Assembly (NCBI GenBank): GCA_030141605.1
Contig: JAQGDQ010000282.1
Location: 1-64,000 of the forward strand
DNA: 64,000 nt
Direction: 5' to 3'
Source: Tubiluchus corallicola
Taxonomy: Eukaryota; Priapulida; Priapulimorpha; Priapulimorphida; Tubiluchidae
In this document: positions 2,664 to 34,900 of the stretch, piece after piece
Position numbering within the stretch: the stretch's first letter is position 1
How the letters are laid out: the number at the start of each line of letters is the position of its first letter
The notes under the pieces: generated by a model
Database searches by the model: none
Told to the model about the DNA's origin: nothing
What the model saw: only the letters and a program-made list of their open reading frames with translations
Translations under genes and position numbers: made by a program

Positions 2664-3233
2664 ATGTTTAGTACCAAAGAACATCTTAAAAAGAAAACTG
2701 GACCATACGGTGTTGGGCGTCTTTCTTACCTGCAGTTGCTCGTGAATGAATTTCAAGAAGTTACGGATGCTGACAGCAGGCACCAGATTCTTGCAAATTT
2801 GGCAAATTTCAGTTATGATCCGATTAATTACGAATATTTGAGACAGCTCAATGTCATCGAACTATTTCTGGATTGCCTTACAGAGGCCGACGAAAAAATT
2901 GTTGAGTTTGCAATTGCCGGTATTTGTAATTTGTGCTTAGATGAAAAAAACAAGTCCCACATTTTCCGAAACGATGGTATAACTTTGGTCATTGGATTGC
3001 TGTTGAGCGGAAATGAAAATGTGCTCACGCATGCCATTACAACATTGATTTATTTTGCAAATACATCTCAATTAGGGAGAGATGTTTTGAACTTTGAATT
3101 GTTACAGCGCATGCTAAAGTTTCAAGCATCTGCGAATGGAATCTTGGGTAATTTAGCAACGGTTTTCATTGAAGATAATTACACTGCTGAAGCTATTAAT
3201 CAAGTCAAAGCAAGTCTTGGCAAAACCATTTAG
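2664..3233 (+). CDS. ARMC7: armadillo repeat-containing protein 7
   Basis: A 189-aa protein encoded in one exon. After a short basic N-terminus it has the family's strongly conserved core: [15 protein letters not shown], then [13 protein letters not shown] and NYEYLRQL, followed by helices forming two to three armadillo repeats (about residues 25-140). The length is close to the vertebrate protein (about 198 aa). The start was set at ATG 2664; an upstream GTG in frame is ignored, and a TTTATAG acceptor ends 23 nt upstream, so the transcript probably has a 5' UTR exon not located here. ARMC7 is an armadillo scaffold reported with spliceosome and nuclear complexes; its biochemical role is poorly defined. 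There are no frame disruptions. Confidence 0.95.
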
Positions 3234-5212: not shown

Positions 5213-8200
5213 ATGAAGACTGTTATGCGTCATTCACTTTGTAGACATCAGGGGCTGAGTCGTTTATACAGTGGGTAAGTTGTTTACCTTTTTTAATAGT
5301 CTTTCCTAACTTGAACTGCTGATTAACACTGACATCTAACAGCCCTGAGTTACTCCAATGTCTCACTTGCTATGAGACAAATAGGGTTATAAAAGTACAA
5401 GTGGTTTGGTAGGGGTAGTTGACCTCAAATGTTCTACTGCTTATTAAGAATAGAATGTTGATAAAAGGAACAGTCTATTTTTTTTCAACTACACATCTTG
5501 CTTGCCAAAATATTTTCTTAAAAATGTTTTTTTACGTTTAATGTTGAGTAAAATACTTTTAATGTTGAAAAAAATGTGAAATTACAAAATTTCAAGTTTT
5601 TCTCTGTGCAAAACAGTAAAAATTTTAATTTGTAGTTTAACTTGTGTATGGTAATTCTTTTAAATCAAAACAGCCAATGCCCCCTCAAATTATTTTTCTG
5701 TAATAGTGCTCAACACATGCAGAATACTAATTAAATTAACAACTGTTGTGGTTTTCCATGCAAATATAATTTAAATCCTAATAAAAAATGATTGGTTTAC
5801 AAAATTTTATTTTTCAGCATAACAGGATTTATGAGTGGCAGTGATTCTCCGCCGGAAATACCATCACAAGCTAGAGTTGTCATTTGTGGCGGAGGAATCA
5901 TTGGGACGTCTGTCTTGTATCATTTATGTAAATATGGATGGAGAGATGTCGTGCTGTTGGAACAAGGGCGGTATGTTATAAATTTCTTTTGAAATCTCTT
6001 ACAAAAATTTGTTATGTCAGGTGGCACAAAAAAATGTGCAGAAGTTTTGGTCACATTATACAAAGAAAACAATGGAGCCACTTGAAAATTACCACATTGT
6101 GTTACAGGCGTTTATGTATAAACATCAAAGTACACTTTCTCCAGATACCATAATCCAGAGGATTAAATCCCATTTTTATAAGAAATCTTTATTAGTGCTT
6201 TACTCTCTGTGGTGAAGACCAGTGAGGTAAACTTTATTGTCTTTATTGTTTTGCTGCCATGCTGTTTTTCAGTTTATGATTAGCTGCCATTGTTCTGTTA
6301 TTTAATTTTTTGGACAGTCAAAAGCTTTTCAACTGGAACTTAAAAACTGCTAAAACTATGAACTGTTACATATGAACTTGTAACTTTCGCAACCATACGT
6401 TAATGTAATATCATGCTGTGAAGTTTAACTTTGTAGGGCACTTGCATCTAATGCTTCTGGCTTCTAAAATTTGGCACACTTTTTGTGCCACCTGATATAA
6501 CATCAGGTTTATACTGATTTGGCTACACATTTGTAAAGACATTTGTGTAAGCATACCTTTGATGAGAAAAATTGAAGTGACATATGGACCTATAATCTAT
6601 TGTCTGTAATGATGCAGATTTTTTATTGTAATGTTATTTTATTATAAACATTGCAGCTGCCTAACATATTGCTAACTTGTATTTTATTTAGTGATGAATT
6701 GTAACTGTAAAATTGTTTACTTTAAACCTTTGGGTTTACTTTTGAATCTTAATTTCTAGATTCTAAATGTTTTTTGTGCATTTCTTGAACTTTGTGTTGT
6801 GTTAACTGTTACCATAGTTTTCTTCAATTAGTTTATTTGCATTTAACTTTCACAGGCATTGTTTAATATGTGCACACTGACAATTTTACAGGTTATCATG
6901 TGGCACTAGTTGGCATGCTGCTGGATTAATAGGCCAGGTTAAGAGTGGCTTATCCGAGTCTAAACTAGCAGTGTATTCAAGGCAGCTTTATAAGGAACTG
7001 GATGATGATGGTGAACCAACAGGTTGGCACATCTCACTATAGTGCTAGCTTTAACAAAGAATTTTTGTTCTTTGTTAAAACTGTAAAATTTTTAGTTATG
7101 CGATTTTATGAGAATCATCCATGTCTCAAGTTCGATTCGGATATTGTGTGTAGTTTTTTGTATCTGCATACATGCACATTTCTGCACAGAACTTAAATTG
7201 CATTTGTTAAATCTAATATGTAAGTTCAAATTTGAACCAGCCATGTTGAGAAATGTTGAATTTAAAAGGTTAAATTAGAAATTATTTTTATTTTTCACAT
7301 GGTAATAATATTAGATCGGTGTGGTGATGCATCAAAAGAACCAATATACAACTGTATTATAAATGTTATAAATATAGAGGCTCCTTAAAAGGCTTTGGTA
7401 GTGGTGGCTATATTTAAGAGGATGTCGGTTTTAGTGAGAGTTGCTATGCTTTTATTCCCAAGCATGTATTTGCGATGTATTTCTTTTAGACTTTTGTTTT
7501 ATTATTTGATTTTAAATGTTTTAGGATGGAAGCAATGTGGTAGTATCAGTTTAGCTCGAACAAGAGACAGGTTGGATACATTTCCAAGTCTAGTTACAAG
7601 AGCTAGGTGTGTTTAATATATGCACATCATGAATTTGCAGATATGTTATGTTGACATTGAAAGTATTATAGTACTTTAAACCAATTTATTCTAGCTTTGA
7701 GTGAGTTAAATGCTGCATCAAATTGTTCACTTGTTCTAACTAAAAAGATGGTGCTTTACTTTTAAAACTTGTAATATCGATTTCATTAACATTTGTGGTT
7801 ACAGTGATGTGCTACTGCTAGTAGAAAAATCCTGGATAGAAGTGGTTTTAATGAGCACCTGTTTCTGTCTGTAAATTAAAATAATTGCTTTTTTCCTTTG
7901 GCAGCACATTAGATGTAGAAGCATATATGATCTCTCCTCAAGATGTACAGAATCACCTGCCTTTTGTAAAAATTGATGATATTGAGGTAATTGTCTTTCC
8001 ATTATTAAAAGTGCGCGTGTCACTGTTAAAGTTTTTACATTTATTAAACAAAACAGGTCAATTCATTTAATGTTTTTTTAAAAAGACTGCTTTTTCTGAC
8101 GTTGTCACAAAGAGTATCAGAAAATTTCTTAGTACACGCGATCAGTTTTTTAGCAGATAGGTAGATTTTATTGTCAGTAAAAATCGTACAATTGACAAGC

Positions 8201-11200
8201 AATTGAATATACTGTTTGTACAGCGACAAATAATGTGGCAGCATACTATTCAATCATTTATGATGACTGACTGGTATGCTGCCATATTGTATGCCACAGT
8301 ATACATTGTATAGTCAATTGTATGAACAGATTCAGAAGTTCAGAATTTGCAGCTGAACAATCAAAATTATTTTTTGTCATTTGTTTATATTTCATTATTC
8401 TGTTCGGCTTGAGCTGCATACTCTATTTAATTCAGTATAAATAATTTGCTTTGATATAAAAAACTATCTTGAATTTTTTGGATCAACAAATTCCTGTCGC
8501 CTTCCTAATAAGCAGATTCTTCTAAAGTTATGTGACGTTTTGGAATATGATTTTGTGAAGCTCATAATACAAATTTAGAGTTGAGATTTTTTGCGCTATC
8601 TCATGTTGAAGACATTTTGTTATTTCTGAGTTGCAAATATTCCTTTTTTTATCTTATGTGAATTTTATTCATTCTATTTATTTAATTTAAGTTGAAATTG
8701 TACATTTCATTTGGCATAGATTTTTTAAAGGTAAATTTAAATTCTGAAACGTTACTGTGCTTTTTTGGAAATTTAGCTTTGAAGAAATAATTATGCCATT
8801 TCTTTAATGAGAATTTAAGATTTTAAGAGAAGTAAAAGTAACATTAAAACTATGTATTGTTTTTAGGGTGGACTATTATATCCAACAGATGGCGTAGTCA
8901 GCCCTACAGACATAGTTTCAAGTTTTGCAAGACGAGCAAGACAAAATGGTACTTAAACTCCATAATTTCTAACTTGAAAATAAAAGTTGTCTTCTCCATC
9001 TGACAGTTGAGTTTTGCGCCTTAATTCTGTCACATTAGTGACTTTATTTACAAAGGAAAGGATTGTTGTTGAGATGTATTTTAATTTAGCTAAAGGAATT
9101 TTACTTTTTGAGATACACATAGACAATTATACATAGTAAGTCTTTAAACTGGTTTCTGTCATTCAAACTGTGTATTTAAATGTTGGAAACATCCTACAAA
9201 GAGTTTCCACCTCCATCATGCTGACAAGGTCAAAATATTCTAATGCTCTGTAGTTTGACTGCATACTTGGTTGGCTTAGTACAGTAACATTTTCTTTGGC
9301 AATCTAAATTATTTTGTTAAGATTGAAGCTGCCCCTTTAAAAGTGACTGAAGGCTTGTTAGCTGCAACAATGAATTGAAATTGGAATTGAAAATCTGACA
9401 CTTGCAGTTGCTCCGGAATGGAGTTCTAGTTAGGGTGACTTTAGCAGCTATCCAATTTTTTGTTGGCTGAGTAAACTTAGGTTAAAGTTCCGCGGTTCCA
9501 GGCACTGTGTGATATATGTTATGAAATGCCAACTTGTTAAGTCTATAAAATTGACATGCTTAAATGATATTGTTTAATCCGGCTTAACTGGAGTACCAGC
9601 CGTACTAATTTAACCCTATCTTTAAATGCCATTTTTACATTTTCACAGGTGGTAAGGTTTTCGAAGGCGTCAAAGTTGAGAAAATTTTGACAAAAAACTG
9701 CAAAGTTTCTCAGGTGCAAACGAACGCTGGCTCAATTGACTGTGAATATTTTATCAACTGTGCTGGCTTTGTAAGTTGTTAATTCTTATTTTACTGCAAC
9801 GCCAGTGATATCGCTTTTATGATTTCACAAAACTCTCCTAAACTCATCTTTGTATTCTATATATATAAACTTTGGTTATTTTGAGTGGATTTACAACACA
9901 GTAACTATTCCCGATCACAGTATTTCCACTATGTGCAGTGATGAAATATACTATTGGTTAGTTCGAGTATGTAATAAGTCATAATAGTTAATTCAAAAAT
10001 ACGACTAGTTCATTAGTTGACACTTAATTGAAATTTACGAAACCCGTAGAATAGATATGATAATAGAAACGATTCTCGAAGTACATAAGTCTATAAGCCC
10101 ATGCAAAGTATAAGTAGTACCTTGTAATGCACAATGTTGCTACTTAATTCAGAAATCCAATAGATGTGGAATTAATACAATTAGTGTAGTATTACAGTTA
10201 TTACAGCAATACATATAGTTGTTTCTAGCATAAGTCGTTAATTAATGAGTGCTTGATTGAGAGACAGTCTACATAATAACTTAAAATACAATTATATGTA
10301 CAATTAGTTAACAAAACGTTTAGTGGATTTTATGTAGTTCTGCAACAATTTAAAGAAAATGCCACTGGATGGCTGACCTGATCTGAGTTTATGAAAAATG
10401 TTGTTGTATATAATAGCAGGTCTAGGGTTGGCGTTATTTGTATTCCAAGTGTGCATTACTGTTTTTCGTCTTAAAACACGAAATATAGGTGCCATTTTCC
10501 AGCATTTTTCTCTTTTGAAAGTTTGGTACCTTAAGTGGCATGTTAAGTACTAGTTGCTTGAGACTGTATATGTTTGCTGAATGTAAAGGTGATAGGTTGG
10601 TTTATTGCATTCAGGTGCAAACTAATGGAAGTGCGGCTTTATTTGTTTAGTGGAGTCATAATCTGGGACGTGACGGTATTCCCGGCAAGAAAGTCCGTGT
10701 TCCACTGCATCCGGTTGAACATTTTTATATTGTAACTAAAGAGCTGGAGGGAATCCCACCTATGATGCCTGGTAAATTTTCTTAAAAATGTATTAGCTAG
10801 CACTGTAAACATACCAGAGATTACATACAAGCCAATGCTAGCCTCAGATGCTACTCTTGAAGCTGAATAAAACTACTGTTGTTTGGTTTTAGATTAACAT
10901 AAAGGAAGATAATTGTGATTCTTGTAGATATTTTAAAAACTCTATCACCAAATAGTTCATTTTTTTGTATATTTGATTAGCCAAACATGTTAAGTCATTC
11001 CTCAAAGAGAATTTTTGTTTATGTTTCTGCATCTCACAAAGTATTTACTTTGATAGCAAGGTTAGTGACAAGAGAATGACTGTAATTGTTAATCTAGGTA
11101 AAAGAACTTGCTTTGAGAAAAATATACTTTTTGCAATAGTGTCTTTGTCTCGATAACACTTATTGTAACTTTTCTAACATAAAAGAAGTTGCTAATTTCG

Positions 11201-14200
11201 TAAATGAGTTTCTTTGTGTTATTAAACTTTTTTTTATGTATTTAGTGATAAGAGACATGGATGTTGGAACTTACTTTCGTGAATGGTCGGGTGGACTCAT
11301 GTGCGGGGGATTTGAGAAAGTAGCTAAACCAGTCTTTCATGACAAAATACCAGATGAGTTTTATTTTCAACTTCTTCCTGAAGACTGGGATCATTTTCGT
11401 AAGTAGTTTTTCTGACACGTTGTAGCTTTCTTACGTTATGTTTTTTTAAATAACCAGAACATTTATTTAGTGGCACCTAAGGCCTTATATTGTACAACAT
11501 TGTAAAGATAATTAAATGAACTTGTAATTTTCTGTTTTTCCTCTTTCCTGTCTGTTGTGCCTTCTGTTTGTGCTCTGTATCATTTTAAAAGCTGGAATAT
11601 TCTTTCTGACATGGATCACATATATGTAATTGATCATATCACTTTCTATATGTAATTGATCACATTTATGCTAATAACGTACAGTAATTGCCACTTAATA
11701 GACTCACGGTTAATTGACTCAAATTACCTGGTACAGGCTGCTTCTATTAAAATGTACATAAAAACTGTCGGTAATTGACTCAAATAATTCCGCATAACCG
11801 ACTCAATATTTTTGCTTCACTTCACATTCAATAAGACACTTTTCATGTGACTGATAAGCTTTCATGACTTTTATATCATCTTAGTTCACTTTTGTCCTAT
11901 AATATACATATAAACAATCATGTTAAGTACCGATTTGTTTGTAAGCAGGGACGTTTATCATGCGCTAATCATGCTAGCCTAAAGGTTTGCTTTGACCCGC
12001 CCATCCACTGCAATTAGCCTCGTTACCCAAGAATTCCTGAAAGCTAAACATTTAATCACTTGTCTAGCGGTTTGCTTTAGAAGCTCTCGTTGTCTTTCCC
12101 AGAAAGTTTAATTAGTTTACCGTTGCTGTTATGCCAGGGATGCAGGTACAGTACAGTTAGTACATCACAATAGCAAGCGGGAGCTTACAGACGAAGCCAC
12201 ATGCGGGGAAATACTGTCACCACCAACAACAACAGTTTTAAATGTTTTTATTATTATGAGAACTTTCTGACCCAACTTGTCACAAAAAATGAATCAGCCG
12301 ACCTTAAACGTATTTCCATTATTTTTGCGAATGAACAGACTTGCGTGATTTAGAAAAGTATATTTTTTAATTTATTGCTAAATCACTTATATAAATTACT
12401 ATTTTAAAATATTTTTTCTAATTTTTAGCTGCACAAAGGAATTTAGGCATTACTTCACTTCTAATATTATTAAAACCCTTTGCAGTGCATAGTAAGCTGA
12501 GGACTCATACTTCTATACCAGTAATACTACACCCATCATTTAATAGGTTCAGTCGGTTAATTGGGTCAAAACACTTTGGTCACAAAGTGAGTCTATTAAG
12601 CGGTGCCTACTGTATTTAATGTCAATTTTTCAGGTGTTTAGGATGTTTCTGACCATCTCCCAGCTGTACTTCATTTAACACTATAGGTATACAAAGTAAG
12701 GAGCAAAAAAAGATTACAATTCGAGACTTTAAAACTTCAATAAGATTCAGCTTAACCGTGAGTCCACAATCTATTTCAAGAAGAACTCTATTGATTAGGC
12801 TCCTACAACGCTGACGAAAATTCTCAAAATTCATTAACTACATATTAAGATGTGCATAACTTTATCAAGGAAACGTACTAACCTTCACAGTAAGCCATTG
12901 CTTACAATTTGTGTACTTAAGGTAGTAGAATTGGAATGTTGTAATCCCATAACATCAATATCAATACTTTCCAGAAATGAAACACAAACAGTTCTCAAAC
13001 AAAAATAACTGATATAATGGACATTGCTAATTATTGTAAACTATTAATTGCTAATATAATAAAAAAACACAAAGAAAGTGTGGATAACAAATAATTAGTA
13101 TCACTATCATGTAATAATTATTCAATAAATTTTTTATCAACTGTTAATCTATTTATTAGTATGAAACTTGTGTTAGAAGAAATGTTACACTTCTTATGAC
13201 GATTATTTTTTGATTCCATTTTGTTTATCAGATTTGGCATTTATCTGTTGCAGAACCAATGTTGGAAGAAATGTTGCATCGAATTCCTATGTTAGTAAAT
13301 GCTAAGGTGAGACACATGACAAATGGTCCAGAAAGCTTCACACCCGATGGAAAGATCATTTTTGGAGAAGTGCCAGAGGTAATGAATATAACGATGTATG
13401 AGTGTGATTTACGTGTTTTGAGTTTGCTCACGTTAATACATTTTATGGAATTAATGAGCACGAAATCCACTGAAACCAATGATTCTTAATCACATTATAG
13501 CCCTCATAGAGAAAAGCTGTTATTAGGCAATTGAAAAACTTTTTAAGGCTAATCTAGTACTGTTTAAAATACTTGTACCTGTAAGCATGTACACTTTTAC
13601 TTGTAAAGCATTAACAGCCAAAATTGTAAGCATGTGCAGTCGTAAGCATGTACAGCTGTACTTGTAAGTATTTTTAAATAATAGATTTTAAACTTGCTAG
13701 AAATTGACTGCTGAACTTCAGAATTTGTTTTCATTATTCAGAAGTTTTGTTTCATGTGAGAATGAAGCAATATGGGAAATCTTAGCTACCAGATCAACAG
13801 CTGATGCTATTGAATCATGCTTGGACTGTTGTCTGATGAAATCAACTTGACAACTGTCTTTAAATTGTATTGAAATTGGGATGAGTGGACCACAGTCATG
13901 CGGACTGGATAGGACAAGGTCTACAACTTTTTTTGTGGATCAGATCATACTATGGATTTATTATTGAAAATAAGGAAAATAGGTGGACCAGATAAAAAAA
14001 TAATAGCGAACCGGATCTTTAGAGTTGTCATTTATTATCGATGTTAATCCGCAACTATGATGATGCACATCGCGGGGAAATGCACTCCATGTTTAGCAAA
14101 TGAGGCTTTATTTTCTCGTGATATTACCTAACATTGTTCCCGTCTTAGTGATAGAGTACTGACTGCAAAACAGCCCAAAATATTTTTATTTAATTTTAGT

Positions 14201-17200
14201 TTTTTGATCAGCTGATCCCCTCATCCCTGTATTGAAATGAAAGTGTTGTTCACCTTACAGAGTTTTAATCAGTTTTAAGCTTTTACATGTTGGTTTAAAA
14301 CTTTAATATTAATATTGTGGCACCTTTTTATAGTGTTACACTTGAAAATGGCTTATCCAGTTTTATCAGCTGTCTCTTTAGCTAAACATTGGTTTATGAA
14401 TGAAGCTGCGTGTTTCCTTCGTACATAAGCCTTTTATCGAAACCATCTTTTCTTGAATAAATTTTATTTTTTATTTTTTACATTTCAAACCTGGGGCTTT
14501 TATTTGGATAAGCTTTCCAGAGTGTTCTTCAGAAGAAAAATAATCAAAACATTGATTCATCTCATTTCACGGCTAAGCGTTTTATCTTTTTTATTGAAAG
14601 CCTCAGTCTTTTTCGTGCTTTTGGTTTTTGACTAAAAGCATCTTATGCCAAGTCGGGGTGATCTGTTTTTCGTAGGTAGACAATTACTATGTTGCTACGG
14701 GTATGAATTCATCAGGACTAACATTTGGAGGTGGAATAGGCAAGGCAATGGCTGAATACATCATTGAAGGAGAGCCAACATTAGACCTGTGGCATCAAGA
14801 TGTTAAGAGATTCCTAGACTTGCACAACAACAAGAAATACCTACGCGATAGAGTGAAGGAGATAGTTGGTGAGAGAAGGGATTTATTGGAACTTTCCGCC
14901 CTACTGCATGAGGAGTTACTAAGCCCCTTGCATGCTCGTTAATTTATTTTTCAGGTGAATAATTACTTTGTCGCTACTGGCATGAACTCTAGTGGCATTG
15001 TGTTCGGTGGCGGTGTGGGTAAGGCGATGGCTGAATACCTGGTCGAAGGCGAACCATCTCTCGATTTGCTGCAGCAGGACGTCAAGAGGTTTCTTGACCT
15101 GCACAATAATCGGAAGTTTCTGCGTGACAGAGTGAAAGAAGTTGTCGGTGAGCCCTGGAGAACATTTGTAAAGCTACCCACTGCGATATGCTTTTTCTTG
15201 TCTTTTTTTCAAAATTTAAACCAATAGCAAAGAGCAAATTGTGCAACTTATTTCTTAGGCCAAAGAAATTTCTTAGAATGTGCTCAACCTTGACATTAGG
15301 TTTGACCCTCATACCTAAGGCAGTCTAGTATGTCATCTGTAGATTTAAATGTCACGCTTGCACAGAGAGTCTGCACGTTGAACAGTAATTCAAAAGTGAG
15401 CCACTCAAGGACTGTTTTTGCTGTACAATGAATGCGATTCCTGCTGTTTGCCATACAGCAGCCATAGAATTTGTACTAGAACTTGGCGCCCTTTATTGCC
15501 TCACCTTTTTCCATGCCTAGCAGTGTCTCTGTGCACATGTGGCATTTAAACATATAATGTTATCCTAGGGCTTATCAATGATACTGCTTTAGGATTTGGT
15601 CCTGTCACAACCACTAGCATAATAATAAGTAACCCTAATGTGGTACCAGCTTGCCGTGTGCCGAATATGTAAAAAAGCAGCAGTTATAGGATTTTGAAAA
15701 GAGCTACAAAGGAAATCATGTAATGGTCACTTATGGGAAACATCTGGATAAAAGTGCAATTGAGTTATCTGTTAGGGAAGTATGTGTTACCCAAAGTTCA
15801 AGTGCTGTAAGTACTGACCATAATTTTCGACCACTATTGCCAGTTAGAAGTCTTTTTGCTATGGCATGTACTTTTAATTTTAATTTTTTGCTCATTTTAT
15901 ATATTCGCATGTTATCCATCATAATTTTTGCTGCTTCGTTTAATTGTAACAACTTTGGGTTGTATCCAGAGATGCATGTTAATGTCCGTGCACTTGCATA
16001 CTATTTTTATCGTTTTTTGCTTTTTTGGTTTAGACTCCATTTTAATCTCATTCTTTTTAAAGTTATTTATTTTAACATTTGTGTGCTCATGTGTGTTTGT
16101 GTATTCAACACTTTTTGTGTTTGTCCTCAGTACAGTATTAAACAAAAGATCAAGTCTTCTAGGAAGTTAGACTTACTTCAATGTTTGCGAAAAAAGATTT
16201 AGTAATTAAAGTGTGATAAGCGTCTCGCATAAGTAGTAAAATCACTAAAGTCCACATCACTTCCCTCATGGTTGCACCCATTCTGAACACCTGTTCCTCC
16301 ACAAATGATGTCATTCTTCGATTGAAGAAAAGCAGCACACTGTCAGTTCCTTTTCTGCTTAAGTATGATAAGTTTTTACAAAAAAGCTGACTTTATAATG
16401 TTTTTATATTTGGGTATATTTGGGTTTATATTTGGGTATTAACTGACCAATTAAATTGTTTTGTATAGGTCGGTACTATAAAATTCAGTACCCACTTATG
16501 GACTATTCAACTAGTAGAAAGTTACGTACATCTCCGCTGTACACTAAATTACAGGCTGCTGGTGCTGTATTTGTACAATCATGTGGATTTGAGAGACCTA
16601 TGTGGTTCGACGTCGACTCGGGTAATCTTTTTTTTTTGGTTGTTTGAACTTGTCACAACGTAACTGCGTAACTGCGTGTTTTACAGAAAATGTCCACTTC
16701 AGTTTGAATTTTTTTTTACTTAGAGGACATCTTTTAGTTAATTGTGGTTACCAAAGTTGCATAAGTTAAACAGGTCTCAAAGATGGAAGTGTACGTCCCA
16801 CTGCTTTTGTTTTAAACTTGGTATTTGTTTTAGTTGACAAAAGGAAAATCCTGGCTGGTTCATGAAAATTTTTTGTGAACCTGTTTAAGTTTCTATAAAA
16901 CAATTTTCAACATGTGCAGCTAGCAAACGTTGCTCAACTTGCAGTTAAAAGCAATTTATTGTTTGCATTTGCTGTCCTAACATGCCTTACTTTCAATTAG
17001 GCGAGCTAAAATTTTTAATTCTACCTTTATATTACCTTTAAAGAATGAATAGTCATTAACCTTTATAATATAGCTGATTACAAGAGCAATATCTGTTTCA
17101 TAGATAAATTTCATTAATTTTTTTAGGAGAAAAATCCAGTGTCTAAAGCAAGCTAGCAGTCATCATCAGGAAATATATAAATAATGAGTTAAAATTCATT

Positions 17201-20200
17201 AAAATTCATTTATAGAAACGTGAATTTTTCTAATAAGAATTTAATGAAATTTATTATATAGTAATTTGTTTATAAAATTCAAATAGATCTTAAAATATGA
17301 GTAACTAGAATGAATAAACTTAAAAATTTATGTGAAACAACAATCAGCTTAACAGCCAAGTTGCCGAAGAACTGAGATACGGTTTTGTGTGCAAGACTGC
17401 TTGTGTAATTGATCCAGTTAATTAACTAACCAATTAATTAGTTGGATTTAGGCATTTAACCACCATTGCACTAATTATTTGTTTGCTAAGGATGACATTT
17501 GTCAATGGCTTAGATGTTGATGTAAAGCTCAAGAGATTAGAGTGCGTATGTGGTAATTACATGCTGCACAGTCTCTTATTCATTTGTTAAGCAGTTCACA
17601 ATTTTCAAATATTGGCCATGTTGTTTCAAATGAAGTGTCAAGTTTATTACAGCAAATTGGTCAATAATTAATTATTTACTGAACCGTCCAATCAGTTTAC
17701 ATTTTTTCTGCATTAGATGATTACACAGATCGCTCATCATTTTATCAGTTGGATAAATCATTTGGGAAGCCTGTTTGGTTTGATGCGGTCAGAGACGAGT
17801 ACCTTTCTAGCAGGGAAGGAGTGGCTATGATTGATATGTCTGCATTTGCCAAATTTGAATTAAAGGTAAATGTGGTGCTTTGTCAATGATCAACAGTAAA
17901 ATATAAGCCATTGATTTAGACATTCATGGATTGAATATTGTGTTGATTTGGCTTTACAATACGTTGTTTTTAACATGTGTTTAAATATGAGTTAAACTAA
18001 GGATTATTAGTTGCAAATGTCAAGTATTCTTAGGTCTGTGCAGTTTTTGTGCCTCAAAACAAAAATTATTTAGGTGCAAAGCCAATGATAGTAATGTAAG
18101 TTACATTTTGTTGTTTTCTTTTATTTATTTATTGCTATTAGCTGTTTTTAGATTCTTGACCAGTGGCGGCTCGTGTATAGGTACTGTGGTACTGCAGCGC
18201 CCCCTGTTTTCACTCATTATTATCGATAATATTCAATATAATAAGTCCTTTTTCTTTAGTTTTTTTATATTTGTTCAGAACCGGAGCATGCGAGGGAAAT
18301 ACAATTTGCTTCACAGCCCAAGCAATGTGGTGTTTGGCTGTTGTACGCATGTGGCCATGTACACATGTCTGAGGTAACACGCTGTATGCTAGCGTCTGCT
18401 GCTAGGTAGAAAAGTACTCTATCACATTAATAATTGCCATGTGCTTACCGGGTACCGTCATATTCTTGGATATGATAAAGCGTAAACTTAGCGTGTGTGC
18501 TTAAAACATAAATTATTTAATAATGGACGCCTTGCATCCTCAAGAAATAAGTTCTGTGACTGTAAGTGAACTACAACAGCTTAATTTTTCACAGTTGTCT
18601 CTCCATGAGAAAGTTGCAGTTAAGAAAAGAGGCCGTTTAGCACCTGATCTTCAAATATAACTACAACATTAAAGTTACATATGTTTCTTACGTTTTCCAC
18701 AGTATTAAAACAATGGCTAAAAATTTTCTGGAGCAGCACCCCACTAATTTTAGCTATTAGCCGCCACTGTTCTTGACTCTGTAAATCCATTAACCAATGC
18801 TTTTCATTTCTTTCATACAGAAAAGGTGAGAGTAAAGCTTGACGAAAGTTAAAATCTGACTTATTTTGACACTTTCATTGAAATTCTGAGAAATGTGAAC
18901 TTTTTTTGATACCAGATTTACATTATTGTGCGTTAATGTGCTGCTATGTTTAAGAACACCATTAAAATTCAACCTTGAGATGGATTTTTATACTTTCAGT
19001 CAGCTGGTCATGAAGTAGTGGATTTTATGCAGTATCTCTGCTCCAATAACGTTGACAAGCCAGTAGGTGACCTCATGCATTCAGGCATGCAGAACCACAG
19101 AGGCGGTTACGAGAATGATTGTAGTGTTGTACGGCTAGCTGAGAACCAGTAAATATACATGCTGTAAAAGTTTAACATAAAGAATGCTGAGCTGAGCCTT
19201 GGCCTTGCATGCACTAATAATTACCATACTTGTAAAATGTTTCAACTTGAGGCCTAATAAGGAGGGTTAGCTTCACGAATCATTGGCATACTTTTGCTTT
19301 TTAGCATTTTAGGTCTTTGAAATACGTCTGAGAACTTAAGGAGTTAACAAAGAGTCAATTGTGATTTTCACGTTTACTGCAAACTTGTCTCCATCTACCA
19401 GTCTCGACTTGTAAAATGTAATTTGTTCAAACTTATTTATTCAATAATTAATTTACCTCTGTAACTTTTTAGCTAACACGTTGACCCCATTTTGTTGTAG
19501 ACTATGATGCAAGTCAGTTCAAATTTATTTCCCCATTATTTTAATGTTTTCATGATAGTTATAGCAGTTTGGATCAGGAACTGTATTGAAAAACCGTAAG
19601 ATCTACCAATAATGCTTCTACTTGCCAAAATATTTTTTAATATCTTTCCTTTTTACTGGTGGCATGCAGGTCTTTGTTTACCAAGCATCTGAAGTAAGAG
19701 AAATACGACGGGTAATGTTTCCCATATTTTGCATGGGTTTGGTTGTTAGTCAAGGACCAATCATTTAGGAGTTGACTTCTAGGAAATAAGGAAATGAACA
19801 TCACTTGATTAAGTACAGGCTTCTGTAAGAGGTATTGGAATAGCTTCTATCTCTAGGTGTTCCAATGTACTGTTGGAAAAAACTACACAACAAAACAAAG
19901 GTTACTTTTAGAACAATGTGTGACAAACGAATCCGAGCAAAAAAATTGCTTGTGAAGATTTTAAGTTATACAGTTAGCTGATTCCGCTCTACTGGTAATG
20001 GTTTGTATTGTTTGATTTGATTTGACTTGATTTGTTTTGTATTATCGTAACATTTCTCTTGATTGTCAGTTTGTAACATTATCGAGTTTATAATTCCATA
20101 CAGATTACTTGTGCTATCTTGAATTAACTGTAGTTGCATTTATAAAATCGTAGCAGTTATTGCCAGTTTTAATGTGTTCATTAGGCTAAAGATATGGTGC

Positions 20201-22846
20201 AAACTTGATCTTTTGATACGCTAATGTTCTGTCTCCTTTTTCAGTTATTTTGTGATCTCACCTTCCCAGCAGCAGACACGTTGTATGAAGTGGATCAAAT
20301 CACATTTACCCAGTGATGGATCTGTAATGGTGACTGATGTGACTTCCATGTACACGGCGATTAATGTCATCGGAGCTTTGTCACGTGATCTCATGTCAGA
20401 GTTAACCGAAGTTTCGATGGCTAATACAGATTTTCCTTTCTTTAAATGCAAGGTGCATTTTCAGATTTAATTGGAAATCAACAAAAACACATTAGGGCTT
20501 TGCTCTAGGATGCCACTGTTCTAAGAAAATAGCATCCGTTAGGTTTTCTCATCCATCCTCTTAAAATTGGCCAAATCATTGTAATTGTTAAGTTTCAATT
20601 TCATTAGAATGTAATCTTAGATACAATCAGTGCTCTTAGAAACAGTTGCTTTTGCAGGTTATTGATGTAGGATATGCGACAGGAATTCGTGCTCTCAGTA
20701 TATCACATGCTGGCGAATTAGGCTGGGTGTTGTATATTCCTAACGAGGTATTCTTTTTATTGTCTGTTACTGTATGAAAGGCATTTTTATAATACAACAA
20801 TGCAATGCCACATTTTCAGTGTTGGAATTCCTGCTTGTCACAAGCCAGTTTAACTGTCACCTTTTCCCACAATTTTCCTGACCTATGTAGATACAACTGC
20901 TACGTGTTATTTGTATTTATAATTTATCTTTATGTATATATTTGAGCAAGCGACACATTTCTACCTATGGACAAAGTATTTGTAATAATTCACTGCTGTA
21001 TTTGCATTGATTTTCAGTACGCCTTGCATGTATATGATCGCTTGCAAGCTGTGGGGAAGAATTACGGGTTACGGCATGCCGGTTATTTGGCGATGCGATC
21101 TCTTCGTATAGAAAAGTTATTCGCTCACTGGGGTCAGGATCTTACCCCCTTTACAACGCCACTTGAGGCTGGGAGAGCATTCCGTGTTAAAATTCATGTA
21201 AGTGAGGATTTCTTTCTTAGGGTGTAAAACATTTTTTGTGTTGGGTCAATTACTTTTAAATAAAACATATATGCTCGCTCAATTAATTTTAAAATGTAGT
21301 TTCACTACATATATAATCGTTCTCCTGAAAAGAAGTGTCTTATAGTACCAACACAGTTATTTTTTAAACGTACAGTTGCAGTTATAATTATTGTATAAAT
21401 ATTGTGTCACTACAATAACCATTATTTTCATATTGCAACGGTTCAGCTGAGCATTGTTGATATAGTACATTGCAACGTGCGCAGTTGGTACGTTAAAAAA
21501 GAGCTAATAATTTTATAGTGATTATTAATATGTTAAGTGGTAGGTAAAGAAAGCCAAGTTCATGGTTATAAGTAGTTTATTTATGATTTATCATACACTT
21601 GCAGGTTATTCCGCCTTACAAGGATAATTTAACCTACTGTTTTGTTTCCAATGTCCATGTAAAGTACTTTTATATGTACTGTAGTTGTTACTGAATTAAC
21701 AGGCTTGTTTAGATCTCATGATTAGAAATCTTCACCAATCTTGAAAATGTGTCTTGTCCAGTGTGTTTTTTCCAAAATTGGTTGACCACAGTGAGAAACT
21801 CGTATCAGCTAGCAATGTTGCATAAAGCAGAACTTGTGATTTTTCACTGTTTGTAAATTATGCTTTTAATTTAGTTGGTGTTTTCCGTCATCTGTAGAGA
21901 AACTTTGCTCAAACTTTTTATCTTCTGATGATGTATCTCTCATCTCTTGTAACATTGTTTCCTCTTAAGTTTTTTTTACCCGCAGAGTGACGTTGACTTC
22001 ATTGGCAAACAATCATTACTGGAACAGAAAAAGGATGGCGTGTGCAAGAAACTCATCCAGCTACAAATATCTGATCATGACGTGGACAGTGACATCTGGC
22101 CTTGGGGTGGTGAAGCCATATATAGAAATGGAAAGCATTGTGGAACAACTACGTCGGCTATGTATGGCTTTACGTTGAACAGACAAGTGTGCATAGGTAA
22201 AACGTGTTTAAGTGATGTAATTATTGAAAAAGTCCTCTGAGGTACTAAGTGATACCACTAAATCCCTGAAATTCAGTTTTCTCCAGCAAGTGGAATCACT
22301 ATGAAGCTTATTATTGCTTATAGTACAATGCTACTTTCATTTCAAACAAGTGAAAAAGTAGATTTTCAACATTTGTTTTGCATCACTTTACTAGCTTTTA
22401 CTTTTACTTGATTTGGCCATTCTTGTTTAAAAATCAGAAACTGAGATCTCATTCGTTAGTGTCAAAGAATTTCATTTGTCAAAACCAATTTGAATTTTTG
22501 AGTGTGCTATTCAAATATTTAAACTCTTTTACCTTTTCACATACCAAACTCTAGTGCTTTTTGATAATTATGAAGTATTTGCCTCATATGGCTTCACTAC
22601 AGTACTTACCTGATGTCATTAACTATAACATTTTCTATGTGCTTAGGCTTTGTGCATGACAGAGACGATGTTTCTGGTCAACTGAGACCAATAGATAATG
22701 ACTACATACTAAAGGATGCTAGTTTCGAAGTGGAAATTGCGGGCAGACGTTTCCCAGCAAAAGCTGGTGTTCACTCACCTACGCTGGTCTCTGTGGTTGC
22801 GCCACCTAGTCAGTATGCAGCTACACAAGCTTGGTCTCCAACTTGA
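5213..22846 (+). CDS. PDPR: PDPR-A: pyruvate dehydrogenase phosphatase regulatory subunit type flavoprotein
   Basis: Complete gene with 19 coding exons (5213-5274, 5818-5970, 6892-7022, 7525-7606, 7905-7986, 8867-8948, 9649-9770, 10651-10771, 11246-11398, 13254-13378, 14676-14868 or 14955-15147, 16469-16621, 17717-17865, 19000-19148, 20245-20452, 20658-20747, 21018-21197, 21986-22196, 22647-22846). All junctions are GT-AG and phases agree; the product is 881 aa (human PDPR 879). Residues 1-20 are basic and without acidic residues, like a mitochondrial targeting peptide. A DAO-type FAD domain follows: GGGIIG 45-50, Glu69 for the FAD ribose, EHFY in exon 8, GGFE in exon 9, GMNSSG 380-385. A GCV_T/folate-binding half follows, with GGYENDC 571-577 and WPWGGEAIYRNG in exon 18. 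In mammals PDPR lowers the Mg2+ sensitivity of PDP1, which reactivates pyruvate dehydrogenase in the matrix. Unusually, Trp79-His80 matches the flavinylation site of dimethylglycine dehydrogenase. Confidence 0.95.
6011..6501. mobile_element. MITE with terminal inverted repeats, copy 1 (PDPR-A intron 2)
   Basis: The left end reads TTATGTCAGGTGGCACAAAA and the right end is its near-reverse complement, ending GTGCCACCTGATATAA. The interior has no transposase coding. A second, longer copy with the same ends lies at 62949-63742, and the interiors share several blocks, for example CCAGATACCATAATCCAGAG and the (A/C)CTAAAAC motif near the right end. This is a non-autonomous DNA transposon family whose superfamily is not determined. 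The target duplication is ambiguous (TA or TTA). Confidence 0.8.
8200..8320. repeat. imperfect 47-bp foldback in PDPR-A intron 5
   Basis: Positions 8200-8246 and 8274-8320 form inverted arms at about 75% identity around a 27-nt loop. The best-conserved ends are CAATTGA at the outside and GGCAGCATAC next to the loop. It could be a decayed foldback element or hairpin RNA precursor; only the sequence symmetry is seen. Confidence 0.6.
11682..12612. mobile_element. non-autonomous pogo/Tigger-like transposon (PDPR-A intron 9)
   Basis: A 931-bp element. The left end starts CAGTAATTGCCACTTAATAG and the right end is the reverse complement of CAGTAGGCACCGCTTAATAG, so the inverted repeats run about 26 bp with few mismatches. 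TA dinucleotides flank both ends (11680-11681 and 12613-12614). Inside, from 12172 on the + strand, SKRELTDEATCGEIL is readable; it resembles the N-terminal helix-turn-helix of pogo/CENP-B transposases. The rest of the transposase is absent, so this is an internally deleted copy. Confidence 0.75.
14676..14868 (+). other. PDPR-A alternative exon 11a
   Basis: 193-nt exon entering at phase 0 (after GTAG) and leaving at phase 1 (G|GTGAGA). It encodes residues 372-435, the last segment of the FAD domain including ATGMNSSGLTFGGGIGK. It is separated from its near-copy 11b by only 86 bp. Its codons use A/T at third positions more than 11b does. It joins in frame to exon 10 (13378) and exon 12 (16469). 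Confidence 0.93.
14955..15147 (+). other. PDPR-A alternative exon 11b
   Basis: 193-nt exon with the same entry and exit phases as 11a (TTTTTCAG before it, G|GTGAGC after it). Its 64 full codons match 11a at about 51 positions and the changes are mostly conservative (I/V, Y/F, T/S, K/R, D/N), plus WH to LQ. Nucleotides differ much more, mostly at third positions, and are more GC-rich. This shows an old duplication kept under protein-level selection. It joins in frame to exons 10 and 12 but not to 11a. Confidence 0.93.
16185..16400 (+). repeat. dispersed repeat, copy 1 (PDPR-A intron 11)
   Basis: Aligns over about 200 bp with 50735-50945 in the same orientation. Shared words are GATTTAGTAAT, AAAGTGTGATAAG, AAAAGCAGC.CACTGTCA and TATGATAAGTTTTTA/TATAATAAGTTTTTA. 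No terminal repeats or coding were identified. It may be a SINE or MITE. Confidence 0.6.
18161..18769. mobile_element. non-autonomous hAT transposon (PDPR-A intron 13)
   Basis: A 609-bp element with terminal inverted repeats CAGTGGCGGCT / AGCCGCCACTG. It is flanked by a perfect 8-bp target duplication, TTCTTGAC (18153-18160 and 18770-18777), the hAT signature. An ORF at 18523-18660 (+) encodes 45 aa ending SLHEKVAVKKRGRLAPDL, which resembles the segment just before the TTF-type zinc finger of hAT transposases of the ZMYM1-like group. The catalytic part is missing. The intact duplication suggests a fairly recent insertion. Confidence 0.85.
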
Positions 22847-28900: not shown

Positions 28901-31900
28901 CCATTCCCAAGAGTGAGTCAGTTGTGAAGTAGGAGAGATCATGAAATACCTGTAAAAGAACTTTGTGATTCACCCAAAAAACTGTATAAGCTAAAAGAAA
29001 AGGATGCAGCAGCAATAGCACTAGGGATGTATGTATCAATAGGCTAACTAGGCTGCAGACTAAGGTGCCAGATTTTAGGAGCCCAGGGTTAAAAAAAATT
29101 TTGAACTCCTCAGCAAATGCATATGCTTTCATATTCATATAAAGCGAGAATTTCGTAACACACAACAAGCAGTCCGCTTTTTTTAAATGAAACCCAACAA
29201 ACAAGTACAAATGTTACATAAAAGATACTACGCCACAAACAAATATAGATAGGGAATAATTTTCGGTGTTGGGCAATTTGGTGAAAAATATGATAATTTG
29301 GCAGGAAATATGATAATTTTTAGTCTTCAATACAATAATCAGCATCATACAAAATGGCAACATTTGTAGTTAACAATGACCTCATAGATACTAGGTTATA
29401 GAGGAACTAATACAACACAAGTAATTGTGCATTGCACTTCATGTATAAGCAATCATAAATCCATAATAGAGATAAGTAGGATTGAACTATCAGTCTGGCG
29501 CATCATAATGTCATGATGACAAGGACACAGACTCACAGATAACACAAAACACGGATCACTCTATGGAATGCTACCCCATGAATTATTTTCCTTACAATTT
29601 TTCATAGTCCATTCTGTGACTGTACTGAGACTGATAACTTTCTGAAAAGACATTTTAATTTCGATTCTTTATCAAAAAATATAGGCGAAAGAGTTGACAA
29701 ATCACCTTTCTTCTGTCAGCAGTTATTTCTGTTTCTCATAACACAAAATCTTCAACAAAATATATTTTCTTTCCCAGGTCAAACTTTAGATAACCAAACC
29801 TAAAACTAAGACTGATAGCTAACCGGTGGAAATTTCTATATAAAGTAGTACAAAAATAACTTTCAATGAGATAGACTGTTGTCAGTAATGAATAAATATT
29901 ATTTTTTGTTTGCAAACCATCAAATTGTGATGCAAACTAATCAGCAGTGAGAATCAAATTTTCCAAATTTAGTCCCTTTGGGGTCAATATATTTTAACTA
30001 CATGTAACAAAACATATATTCACAAAACAGTGTATTATATAACACAATAAACAACACTTGAAAAATCTTCATGCATGAACGGATGACCTGTTTTGTGCTG
30101 TCCGTACAATGCTGCAGTCATTCTCATAACCACCATGATGGTTCAGCATCCCTGTGTGAACGATAGCACCCGGAGGCACATCTACATCATTGGCACAAAT
30201 GTATTGAAGCAATTTCACAACTTCGTCGCCACGAGACTACAAAGCAAACAGAGCACGTTAAAATATGAAAAGCAACAAACAGATTACCAAGCAATAAATA
30301 AAAAGTGGATAAACTAAAAGATGCTCAATACAAGTGCAGGTGCATGATATCATATGAAATCACTACGGTCAAAAATTCATTTTAACATTTCTGACATTAT
30401 GACTTTGACACTTGGTCTTTTGAATCAAAAGGCAATTTGTTACTTTGCCGATACTAGCCATATCTATCCCTGTACTAAGCTTGATGCATAGTTAGGTAGT
30501 AAAGATGGTACACAGTTCCATCCGTTTTGACTTATTGCAGATGCACAGACGCAACTACCCATGCACCCACGGTTGGTGTGGGTGCAAGGCAAAAACACTC
30601 AGTAAAATGCATCGTAAATGTAATTCGTCACCAAATGCATATTCTTTCTCCCATTGATTATCAACAAAGATAATATATGTGTATAAAAAAACAATTCTAA
30701 TAAATGAACACAAGTGATTTACTAATACCCTTGACTGACACTGACAAAAAATTGGTAAACAGGCTGCAAGCACTGAGTAAAACAAATGCAGAGAACAGTG
30801 TTTGCCCACCAACTACAAATTTACTAAACAAATGGTCTCCAAAGATGTCCTGTAGACTTGCACAGTTTTTGACAAAGCACTGATTGTCGAGATTTTTATA
30901 ATTAAAGATTTTACATTTTTTAGCAGTTAGCGGCACATTGAATTAAATTTCTAAAAATGTGATAATTGTAGAATGAGGCTGAACAATGACGCTTCTTTCA
31001 GTATTATGTATATATATATATAAAATCAATATAGTAAAAAGCACAAAATTCAAAAAATATATTCACCCAGAGTTCAAATTTCGACAAAGATGACATGTCA
31101 ATAAGACAGACCCCTTCTCGGCATGCATGATACTCTGCTTCGACATCATCAAACCATTCCGGCTTCCCGAATGTTTCTTGTTTTAATGGTTTTTCCTGTA
31201 GCTCTGCAGTAAAATGACAAATTAAACAAAGCTGTTAATTAACTGAATTGTGTTAACTGCCTCACATCTCTAAAAACCAATCAGCACTTGCAAATACCAA
31301 CACTTACAAGCACGGTACATGCATAATATTAACATAGTAAAATAATATTACTTTTATGTGATAAAAACTGCATATGTTAGTTAGTATACAAAACAATGCT
31401 ACTGTACATGACATACATAAGGGACACAGATGATATTCCATTTTACTGAAGTAGATATGATTTATACAGGCGGTTTAAGTGACTCTGTAACTAGAAAAAT
31501 TATCTCCAGCTCAGATAAAACGAAACTGTTTCTTTTTGCCCCGAATTAAACTTTTTGCCACTTCAAAGTGGATAAAAACAAGTGCAACAAAACTATATGA
31601 AATCATTATAAGAAATATATATGATTGAAAAACTAAAAATACAATCTCCAGTACATGATACTGTACACAATAAACATAGTTCGCATGTATGCTGTTTATG
31701 AAATTATATGAGTAGGTGGCTTGTAACACTGATGAATTAATCTGCCGAATGCTTACCTGTATCATCGGTAAACCACATAGGCCGTTCAAAACCCATTCTG
31801 TCTATGTAAACTGCACCATTTTCTTTTAGAGTAGTGTGCAGTGTAGAGGTTCGAAGATTCCTTCCTGTTCTATGCTCTAGAAATGGGTAGTTTATGGCAT

Positions 31901-34900
31901 AATGGCGACCTAAAAACAATAAAGAAAATGAAAATTTAATATTATAGCAAGTAACTGCATAGTTTACCTGTAATTTATAACATACCAAATAATGGCTAAA
32001 TTACCTCTGTTGATATTTTTTAGGTTCAGTGACTCATCTTAATGGCTTAGCAAAGTTCTAAGGTAATGAGCCAGGTTCTGGTATTGCCACAAGCATTAAT
32101 GTTAAATAAGTCTTGTTACCTAGGGCAGGATTCCAACTTGTTGTGCACCAAATTGTACACTGTACCAAAAATTTAAAAACTGAAACTAATTATAATTTTT
32201 AATCCTGGTGAAGACTTCCAATTTTCAAATTTTCATCGAACACTTGAGCTATAACAAGTTAAATTACAAGTATGTACATTTAATTTTGACAAGCATAAAA
32301 TGTTTAGATGACGTTAATGTCTTTTTGACTTGTCCAGACACATTTTAATTTTGTGAAAAAAGTTGGCATTTCATACTTAGTGCCAGCCTGGGTAATAAAA
32401 TCAAACTGTTGATAATAGAGTGATTTGCAAGAAATTTTGTAAATTAAAGTAACACGTGGAAAGTTATACATAAAACTGTGGTATTGCTTTGCCTTAATAG
32501 GTCAAAATTTGTTGCAACTATTAAATCATTTAAATTTTATGTGACAAAATAATGATGTTCTTTGTTAGTGCTGACTGAGATAAGTACATAGAAACATAAA
32601 GCTGATCGAAGGACAGTGATTGAGTTCATTGTCAAAATTAAAATGACCATGCGTCAAATAATAAAATTGGCCAAAAAAAAACAACAAGAAATCACTGATG
32701 GAGTTACCAACTATTTCCGTCACTCTGTCGCTGAGATATTTGAGATTACTATGTGCTTCAAAGAACCGAGTGATTTCCAATGACCACAGGTCAGTCATGC
32801 GAGGTTCTTCCATCTGGACGATTCTCTCGGCCAACGCTTTTCCCACCCCTCCAGCAGCCGCTATGCCACCATCGCAAAAGCCAGTAGCTAGGTAGTAGTT
32901 ATTAATCTACAAAAGAAAGAAATATTTATTTATTATACAAAGCACATTTTGTCTGGCAACATAGCATTACTGGAGTGTTATTACAACAATGGCGTTTGTT
33001 AGGACTGTCATTAAAGGTGCCACACTGTGCAACACAGCAAGAACATTGTTTTTTTGCTCTATTTGCTCTATACATAAAAGTCCAGCAAAAGGTTACTTTG
33101 GAATGCATGCAAATTTTCTTTTTAACAAATGCAAAAAAGATCAGAACCAGATGATTTCAGTGAGAAGAACTTAGGCGCTTATACTTTAATCATACACCTT
33201 GGCAAAGTACATCGAAAATTTATCTTTTAAAATTACATAAATATTGTTTGTGAAAATTTATCTTTTAAAATTACATAAATATTGTTCACCTCTGGAGCTT
33301 CTCCCACTATCCATGTGCCATCCGGAGTGAAGGCTTCAGGTCCATTAATCATATTCACAGCTGGACGCGCCCCACTGGTAGGAAATCGGTAGTTAAGACG
33401 TAACAAGAGGTAGTCTAAATTGAATACAAAAAAATCATTTTATATCTTTAATTTTACATTCTTGGTGATTAAAACAAGGCAGTGATAAAAGTAATTTTTA
33501 ATATGAAAATAAAAAAAAAATAAAAAACTATTATGAAGATTAATAATCTTGGATATTTGGACATCGTGGATATTTCATTATTTTCAAGTTAGTGAAAACC
33601 CTGAAACCTCAAATCATCATTAAGTGTAAATTACTCTTTTGTTGGAAATGTTGCTGACATTTTACGTCAATAGATGAAGATACCAACATGAGCAAAGGCA
33701 TGGCTTAAATTATCTGCAAAGTTTCAACCATAACATGCTCATGATCAAGCTATTGTACCTAGTAAAATATAATGTATAAAAATCACTACTGAGGTACAAA
33801 AATCAACATTGTGAAAAGCAAAGAACTGTTTCTGTGTTATGGTTTATATCTTGTATTTGAATGTAAGGAAACAAACGGTTATTTCCGCCACCATTTCTAC
33901 CATTTCTACAGCCAATGGTCATTTTCAAGATCTAGCCACATGCGTGGTCGGTTGCTTTTAAAACAGAAATAGAATCACTGCCTGAATGCCTCTCTTTAGA
34001 ACAGAATCCCTCCTCGCTTCCGGAATGAATTATCTGCAAACATTATTCTAATGGCATCATTATCCTCTTTCACACAGGCTGTTTTCCATCATTTTACTAT
34101 CCAAGAGCATGCATTTTAAACCTTTGGCCTCGTAAACAGTTCATTTATTTTTAATATTTAATCATATTTGCAGATAATTTTTGTATTCTAAGTAAATTGT
34201 CTTAGAATATTTTATATAATTTTTTAACAATGTAATTTTTATTTTAGTTCTACGTGTCTCCATGGCACACAGTAGTAGGCACAACCTTCGTATTGATCAT
34301 TAACAAATTTAAATTCACTGTTTTGTTTTACTCATGTATGAAATGTACATATCGATTTTTGTGTCTAATAAATAAGTAAATAAATCGTTGAAACATTGCA
34401 GATGGTAGTGTTGGAATAAACAGGGAGTCTTTGCTTAAGTGGATGTTGGCAGTTCTTTACACCTTAACAATCCAATTTTCCCATCACCAATCAATTTCTC
34501 AACAGAAAATTTTCTCTTAATCTTTAGATTAAAAACAACTCATAAATCGAATTTTTACCTAGGTTTTCAAACATTCTTTAAAGGGGCTATCAATGACAAA
34601 AATATTTCCAAACCCAAAAGTTATTCTGAAGAAAAACAATGTTGGCCTTTACATAAAAATCTATACAAAGTTTACTGTAAGAAATTCTTAACGACCATTT
34701 ATAATACAAACTCAGTGGAAGTTGTAGATATATTTTTGAGAAAAGAACGTGTTCTTAAGAATGTCCAAGATTTTCCTTTCAACAACATTTTTTGCTAATT
34801 CTTAACAGATGTTTTAAACTTTATTAACTTAGCCAATTATGCTTCTAAGCCACTTTTGGATATAAGATAAGTGAGAACAATTGCAGGAATTTTATACCTG

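Follow-up and report, generated by a model that had tools for sequence, protein, structure and literature searches.

Exons 11a and 11b of a gene of the priapulid Tubiluchus corallicola are very probably functional homologous mutually exclusive exons, and their host is a member of the DMGDH family, most likely PDPR. The gene lies in a window of 64,000 nucleotides, which comprises positions 1 to 64,000 of the forward strand of contig JAQGDQ010000282.1 (assembly GCA_030141605.1); all coordinates given below refer to this whole stretch. According to this explanation, both exons would be used, though in different cells or states, and mRNAs which contain both exons, or neither, should be removed by nonsense-mediated decay.

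Exon pair, reading frame and coding constraint

Exon 11a (14676-14868, plus strand) and exon 11b (14955-15147, plus strand) are each 193 nt long and are separated by an intron of 86 nt (14869-14954, plus strand). They are flanked by two shared exons, namely exon 10 (13254-13378, plus strand), which in the exon model ends at a codon boundary, and exon 12 (16469-16621, plus strand). Exon 11a encodes residues 372-435 plus one base and contains Leu386, Thr387, Trp410 and His411; its homologue 11b has Ile386, Val387, Leu410 and Gln411 at these positions. Both are entered in phase 0 and left in phase 1, and both possess an AG acceptor and a GTGAG donor. The initial annotation had described two exons of 193 nt, 86 bp apart and with equal phases; its coordinates and anatomy were found to be right.

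When 11a is joined to 11b, the sequence reads GGT GAA TAA, with a stop at the third codon. When both exons are skipped, the frame shifts and a stop is reached in exon 13 (17717-17865, plus strand). A full protein is obtained only from the combinations 10-11a-12 or 10-11b-12. Both of these early stops had been pointed out before, together with the statement that exactly one exon must be used; the stops were reproduced in the exon model, and it follows from the frame that an open mRNA admits one exon only.

The acceptors of 11a and 11b scored 8.2 and 9.0 bits, respectively (leave-one-out range 0.2-13.1 for 28 acceptors), and the donors 5.6 and 7.4 bits (leave-one-out range 2.3-10.8 for 27 GT donors); the ranges were taken from genes A and B (see below), with the three introns touching 11a or 11b and one GC donor left out. 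Exon 11b was slightly above 11a on both scores, but to call it the default exon from splice scores alone would be guesswork. The G+C content of exon 11b (0.49) is the highest among the 20 exons of gene A; that of 11a is 0.41.

The same residue is encoded in 51 of the 64 complete codons, with a different spelling in 35 of these 51. The bases of the two exons differed at 14 first, 6 second and 43 third codon positions, each of 64, which bears out the earlier impression of about 51 shared residues with widely diverged third positions. Differences were also found at 17 of the 21 fourfold sites; dN, calculated with NG86, was 0.145, and dS was undefined (saturated). Neutral simulations were carried out at rates of 0.3, 0.6 and 1.1 substitutions per site (20,000 at each rate), the lower 95% bound for the fourfold sites being about 1.1 substitutions per site. 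Not one of the 20,000 simulations at any rate retained an open frame and at least 51 identities; the top identity, which occurred at the lowest rate (0.3), was 49. The pair stems from an old tandem duplication of an exon, and selection has constrained the coding sequence of both copies.

When the 343.5 Mb assembly, as far as its sequence was available, was searched with the peptide of 11a (E <= 0.001; all five of five candidates were scored), matches were obtained in four places. Two were 11a and 11b themselves; the others were a diverged paralogue within the window and, on C1803, a SARDH-like gene. No third copy of the exon was found among the repeats in 13379-16468 or, at E <= 0.001, in the assembly, and no processed mRNA copy turned up in the assembly search with this peptide.

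Differences between the two predicted proteins

In the gene product, the flavin domain (PF01266) extends over residues 40-398 and the FAO_M linker (PF16350) over residues 402-457. The first part of exon 11 closes the flavin domain and the rest is situated in the FAO_M linker. The original placement of the pair in the flavin domain holds therefore for the first part of the exon, but not for Trp410/His411 (11a) versus Leu410/Gln411 (11b), which sit in the linker domain. As had been noted, the segment GMNSSG..FGGG.GK is retained (it is identical in 11a and 11b), next to 13 differences, which include WH versus LQ; about 13 had been claimed. Ten of these exchanges are conservative, with a positive BLOSUM62 score. 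The three non-conservative ones are T/V and H/Q, both with a score of 0, and W/L, with a score of -2.

Thr387 of 11a and Val387 of 11b align, with no gap nearby, with Lys348 of monomeric sarcosine oxidase; the sequence used for this oxidase agreed with the PDB record over its whole length. In the portion of PMC12582975 available, Lys348 is described as one of seven residues round the isoalloxazine ring and as an anchor of the substrate, together with Arg52 and Tyr55. The same column contains Thr in DMGO and in one bacterial relative, Ile in DMGDH, Met in the SARDH-like sequence, Ala in paralogue B and in three bacterial relatives, and Gly in one bacterial relative; Val is present in none of the nine other family members. 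At residue 386, Ile, which is the letter of 11b, is the commonest residue (six of the nine other members), and for this reason 11b is not simply the odd one at that position. The Thr387/Val387 exchange, which is absent from the initial annotation, is the most telling difference between the exons.

A switchable flavin site, as proposed at the outset, is supported in part by the position of Thr387/Val387 on the Lys348 column, but the unchanged GMNSSG..FGGG.GK segment and the conservative nature of ten of the 13 differences speak against an extensive change. The exchange could perhaps tune the protein at two spots. One is the flavin-covering loop, with Leu386/Thr387 versus Ile386/Val387 at the position where sarcosine oxidase anchors its substrate; the other is the linker that joins the flavin domain to the folate domain, with Trp410/His411 versus Leu410/Gln411. 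Both are less certain parts of the explanation. The suggestion that the exchange might tune how a regulator senses its ligand is speculation.

It is also possible, though on balance we would not favour it, that the exclusive exons are real and the two proteins are nearly equivalent. The switch would then act as a control of expression, in which the wrong choice feeds decay, or else a tissue-split pattern of splicing would have been kept. The identical GMNSSG..FGGG.GK segment and the ten differences with positive BLOSUM62 scores are in line with this possibility. However, the T/V, H/Q and W/L differences are non-conservative amid strong constraint, and T/V is located on the substrate-anchor column. 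Moreover, the retention of both exons over the long time in which 17 of 21 fourfold sites changed would hardly be expected unless each had a use of its own.

The host gene and its relatives

The complete coding region of the host, the PDPR-like gene A, extends from 5213 to 22846 on the plus strand, in a hand-built exon model which is open from ATG to TGA. It consists of 19 exons per mRNA, or 20 when both alternates are counted, all with AG acceptors and GT donors, and encodes 881 amino acids with either exon 11. From the N- to the C-terminus, the Pfam domains of the product are DAO, FAO_M, GCV_T and GCV_T_C; this domain order places gene A in the DMGDH/SARDH/PDPR family. The N-terminus is, by eye, similar to a mitochondrial presequence. 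The closest solved structure is that of dimethylglycine dehydrogenase (4pab, E 2.8e-120); none of the 45 solved sequences listed in this comparison is a chain named PDPR, and in NCBIfam the 11a-12 peptide was without a match.

A separate DMGDH was found on C1017, in three pieces with 59-73% identity to the rat DMGDH query; one of the three pieces has a TAA inside the match. A further family gene, distinct from gene A, is present on C1803; judging from its motifs, we take it to be SARDH-like. Gene A was taken as PDPR because separate DMGDH and SARDH-like genes exist in the same genome. It also agrees with GMNS.GL.FGGG.GK, which we assume to be the signature of PDPR. By elimination within the genome and by this signature, gene A is most likely PDPR.

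Gene A retains the covalent-flavin His of DMGDH and the counterparts of His225 and Tyr259 of DMGO. The flavin link in human DMGDH is given as His91 in the part of PMC5082570 available, and this residue would be, in our reading of the alignment, the His of WHAAG. Since the covalent His and the counterparts of His225 and Tyr259 are kept, the product of gene A could still have enzymatic activity; with these residues retained, the difference at the substrate anchor gains in interest and the term "regulator" becomes less certain. Human PDPR is not known to have the covalent-flavin His. PDPR binds PDP1 and alters its response to Mg2+; to our knowledge, neither its ligand nor the purpose of its flavin has been settled.

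Gene A could be, instead of PDPR, another branch of the DMGDH family which is still catalytic, and the exchange would then tune an enzyme rather than a regulator of PDH. The covalent His, which human PDPR is not known to have, and the counterparts of His225 and Tyr259 would suit such a gene. We consider it unlikely, however, since the separate DMGDH and SARDH-like genes of this genome leave A and B as a third animal kind, and since both the length of 881 amino acids and the presumed signature GMNS.GL.FGGG.GK fit PDPR. Of similarly low probability is a more far-reaching version of the exchange, in which Thr387 (as in DMGO) versus Val387, together with the change from Trp/His to Leu/Gln in the linker, would yield one form that is catalytically competent as an amine-oxidising flavoprotein and another that regulates PDH phosphatase but is ligand-blind or redox-altered; splicing would then switch between enzyme and regulator.

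The PDPR-like paralogue B (30088-41461, minus strand) is arranged tail to tail with A. Thirteen exons were modelled; the upstream boundary of the first of them was chosen arbitrarily, and by eye more C-terminal exons appear to follow toward about 26 kb. Over 331 columns, the N-terminal part of B showed 41% identity to A. The counterpart of exon 11 in B (32708-32906, minus strand) is 199 nt long. Paralogue B is similar to A in the phases of exon 11 and, as far as it was modelled, in the domain order. Unlike A, it has a single exon 11, no duplicate having been found in the assembly search or the gene model, and it contains GFCDGG for GMNSSG, Met for the covalent-flavin His and Val for the catalytic Tyr. 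It may be a flavin-altered, non-catalytic paralogue. An apparent GC-AG intron was noted in gene B (donor GCAAGT, 39119-39124, minus strand, following the exon 39206-39125).

Other observations in the window are an open frame of 373 residues (408-1529), gag-like by eye and perhaps a remnant of a retroelement, and, downstream of it, a single-exon frame of 189 residues (2664-3233), which presumably resembles ARMC7. A perfect inverted repeat of 32 nt with a loop of 13 nt (2128-2204) looks like a small transposable element or a hairpin.

For an exon-level tree, 11 sequences were used, i.e., 11a, 11b and nine other family members. As outgroups, six of 120 pattern-matching stretches in genome_contigs were confirmed as relatives, all of them bacterial records; five of the six entered the tree, since L007 was, by eye, near-identical to L005 and was dropped. 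In viral_contigs, not one of the 176 stretches that matched a pattern could be confirmed as related to the exon pair. The branch lengths were 0.12 for 11a, 0.083 for 11b and 0.84 for paralogue B. These three sequences formed a three-way fork (83/90), and no fork in the tree passed both support limits. Identities of 11a and 11b, respectively, were 33 and 32 of 65 to paralogue B, 23 and 23 of 65 to the SARDH-like sequence and 22 and 22 of 63 to DMGDH; the widest gap between 11a and 11b among the nine members was 23 against 19 of 65, for L010. Because their branches are short and their distances to the nine members are nearly equal, neither 11a nor 11b appears to be visibly decaying.

Enforcement of exclusion and comparison with known exon pairs

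The best reading is that mutual exclusion would be enforced at least by the reading frame and nonsense-mediated decay. The spacing of the exons could contribute. Among the 31 introns modelled in genes A and B, none is shorter than this intron of 86 nt, and the next shortest, in gene B, has 111 nt; the SARDH-like gene probably has an intron of 114 nt, which is the likeliest of 13 possible joins, although few genes were looked at. The occurrence of the 111-nt intron and the probable 114-nt intron suggests that short introns are apparently spliced in this genome. The best branch-point-like motif for 11b, picked by eye, is TTACTAAG (14916-14923, plus strand), which is a putative branch point. Its last A is 54 nt inside the intron, about 53 nt from the 11a donor, and the intron ends 32 nt farther on. 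The very short intron and this position of the motif may hamper the direct joining of 11a to 11b. For the human OGDH exons 4a/4b, branch points at 25-41 nt from the donor and a steric limit of about 50 nt are reported in the available part of PMC7969005. The distance of about 53 nt, obtained by eye, is at rather than under this threshold; spacing may help exclusion, but is borderline in the present case.

Competing base-pairing between introns, as in Dscam, could be the main means of exclusion in place of frame and spacing, and a candidate pair of 19-nt stretches with 79% complementarity occurs between intron 10 (14525-14543) and the acceptor region of 11b (14944-14962). This is quite improbable, since, when the flanking introns were put through four duplex tests, shuffled sequences equalled or exceeded the real one in stability in 85, 99, 96 and 92 of 100 cases, and at the sensitivity of these tests none of the pairings was stronger than chance. 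Still less credible is the use of one exon with the other as a silent duplicate, which would agree with the one copy found in paralogue B, but hardly with an open frame and 51 of 64 shared residues at saturated silent sites (none of 20,000 simulations at each rate), two intact pairs of splice sites and two short branches.

Functional exclusive exons, the preferred reading, were compared with the criteria for such clusters stated in the available text of PMC5740500. Exons 11a and 11b are internal, adjacent and similar in length (193 and 193 nt, 86 nt apart), they are homologous and in the same frame without a stop (51 of 64 residues, both open), and their splice sites are usable (GT-AG, with scores inside the ranges obtained for the other introns of genes A and B). 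Frame incompatibility, which is not a criterion there but is given for 60% of homologous mutually exclusive clusters (PMC5740500), is also present, since joint inclusion and joint skipping of 11a and 11b both lead to an early stop. In human tandem homologous exons, ligand-binding residues are kept in 80.6% of cases, compared with 53.1% for other residues, and the pair in ACOX1 keeps all five of five predicted FAD residues, according to the portion of PMC9741552 available. The pair 11a/11b fits this human pattern of kept ligand-binding residues.

The closest parallels are found in metabolic genes. As far as they are described in the available part of PMC7969005, OGDH exons 4a/4b are similarly mutually exclusive and belong to a mitochondrial dehydrogenase system; their combined length is not divisible by 3, and the intervening intron is restricted in size. 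They differ from 11a/11b in that their branch points (25-41 nt, compared with about 53 nt for 11a/11b) are inside the limit of about 50 nt, and in that their exchange alters sensitivity to Ca2+. ACOX1 is, like the product of gene A, a flavoenzyme with homologous exons over the flavin-binding segment, but it is an unrelated enzyme, and 28 of 55 residues are kept, compared with 51 of 64 here (PMC9741552, available portion). PKM and KHK, as presented in the accessible text of PMC9741552 and PMC7954323, share with gene A the metabolic role and an exchange of homologous exons beside a ligand site; the PKM exchange changes the allosteric site and tetramerisation.

No report of an exon pair in PDPR was found in the searches made of open-access full text, as the initial annotation had supposed, and PDPR is absent from the main text of three surveys of exon pairs. 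Mutually exclusive splicing is a known class of event, and a PDPR-like gene appears to be new among its cases. Should both forms be produced, gene A would rank with OGDH, PKM and KHK as a gene in which splicing may control the flow of carbon, in this case where pyruvate enters the citric acid cycle. A handle on the ligand of PDPR should then also become available, in the form of two natural variants of the pocket which differ at a known anchor position.
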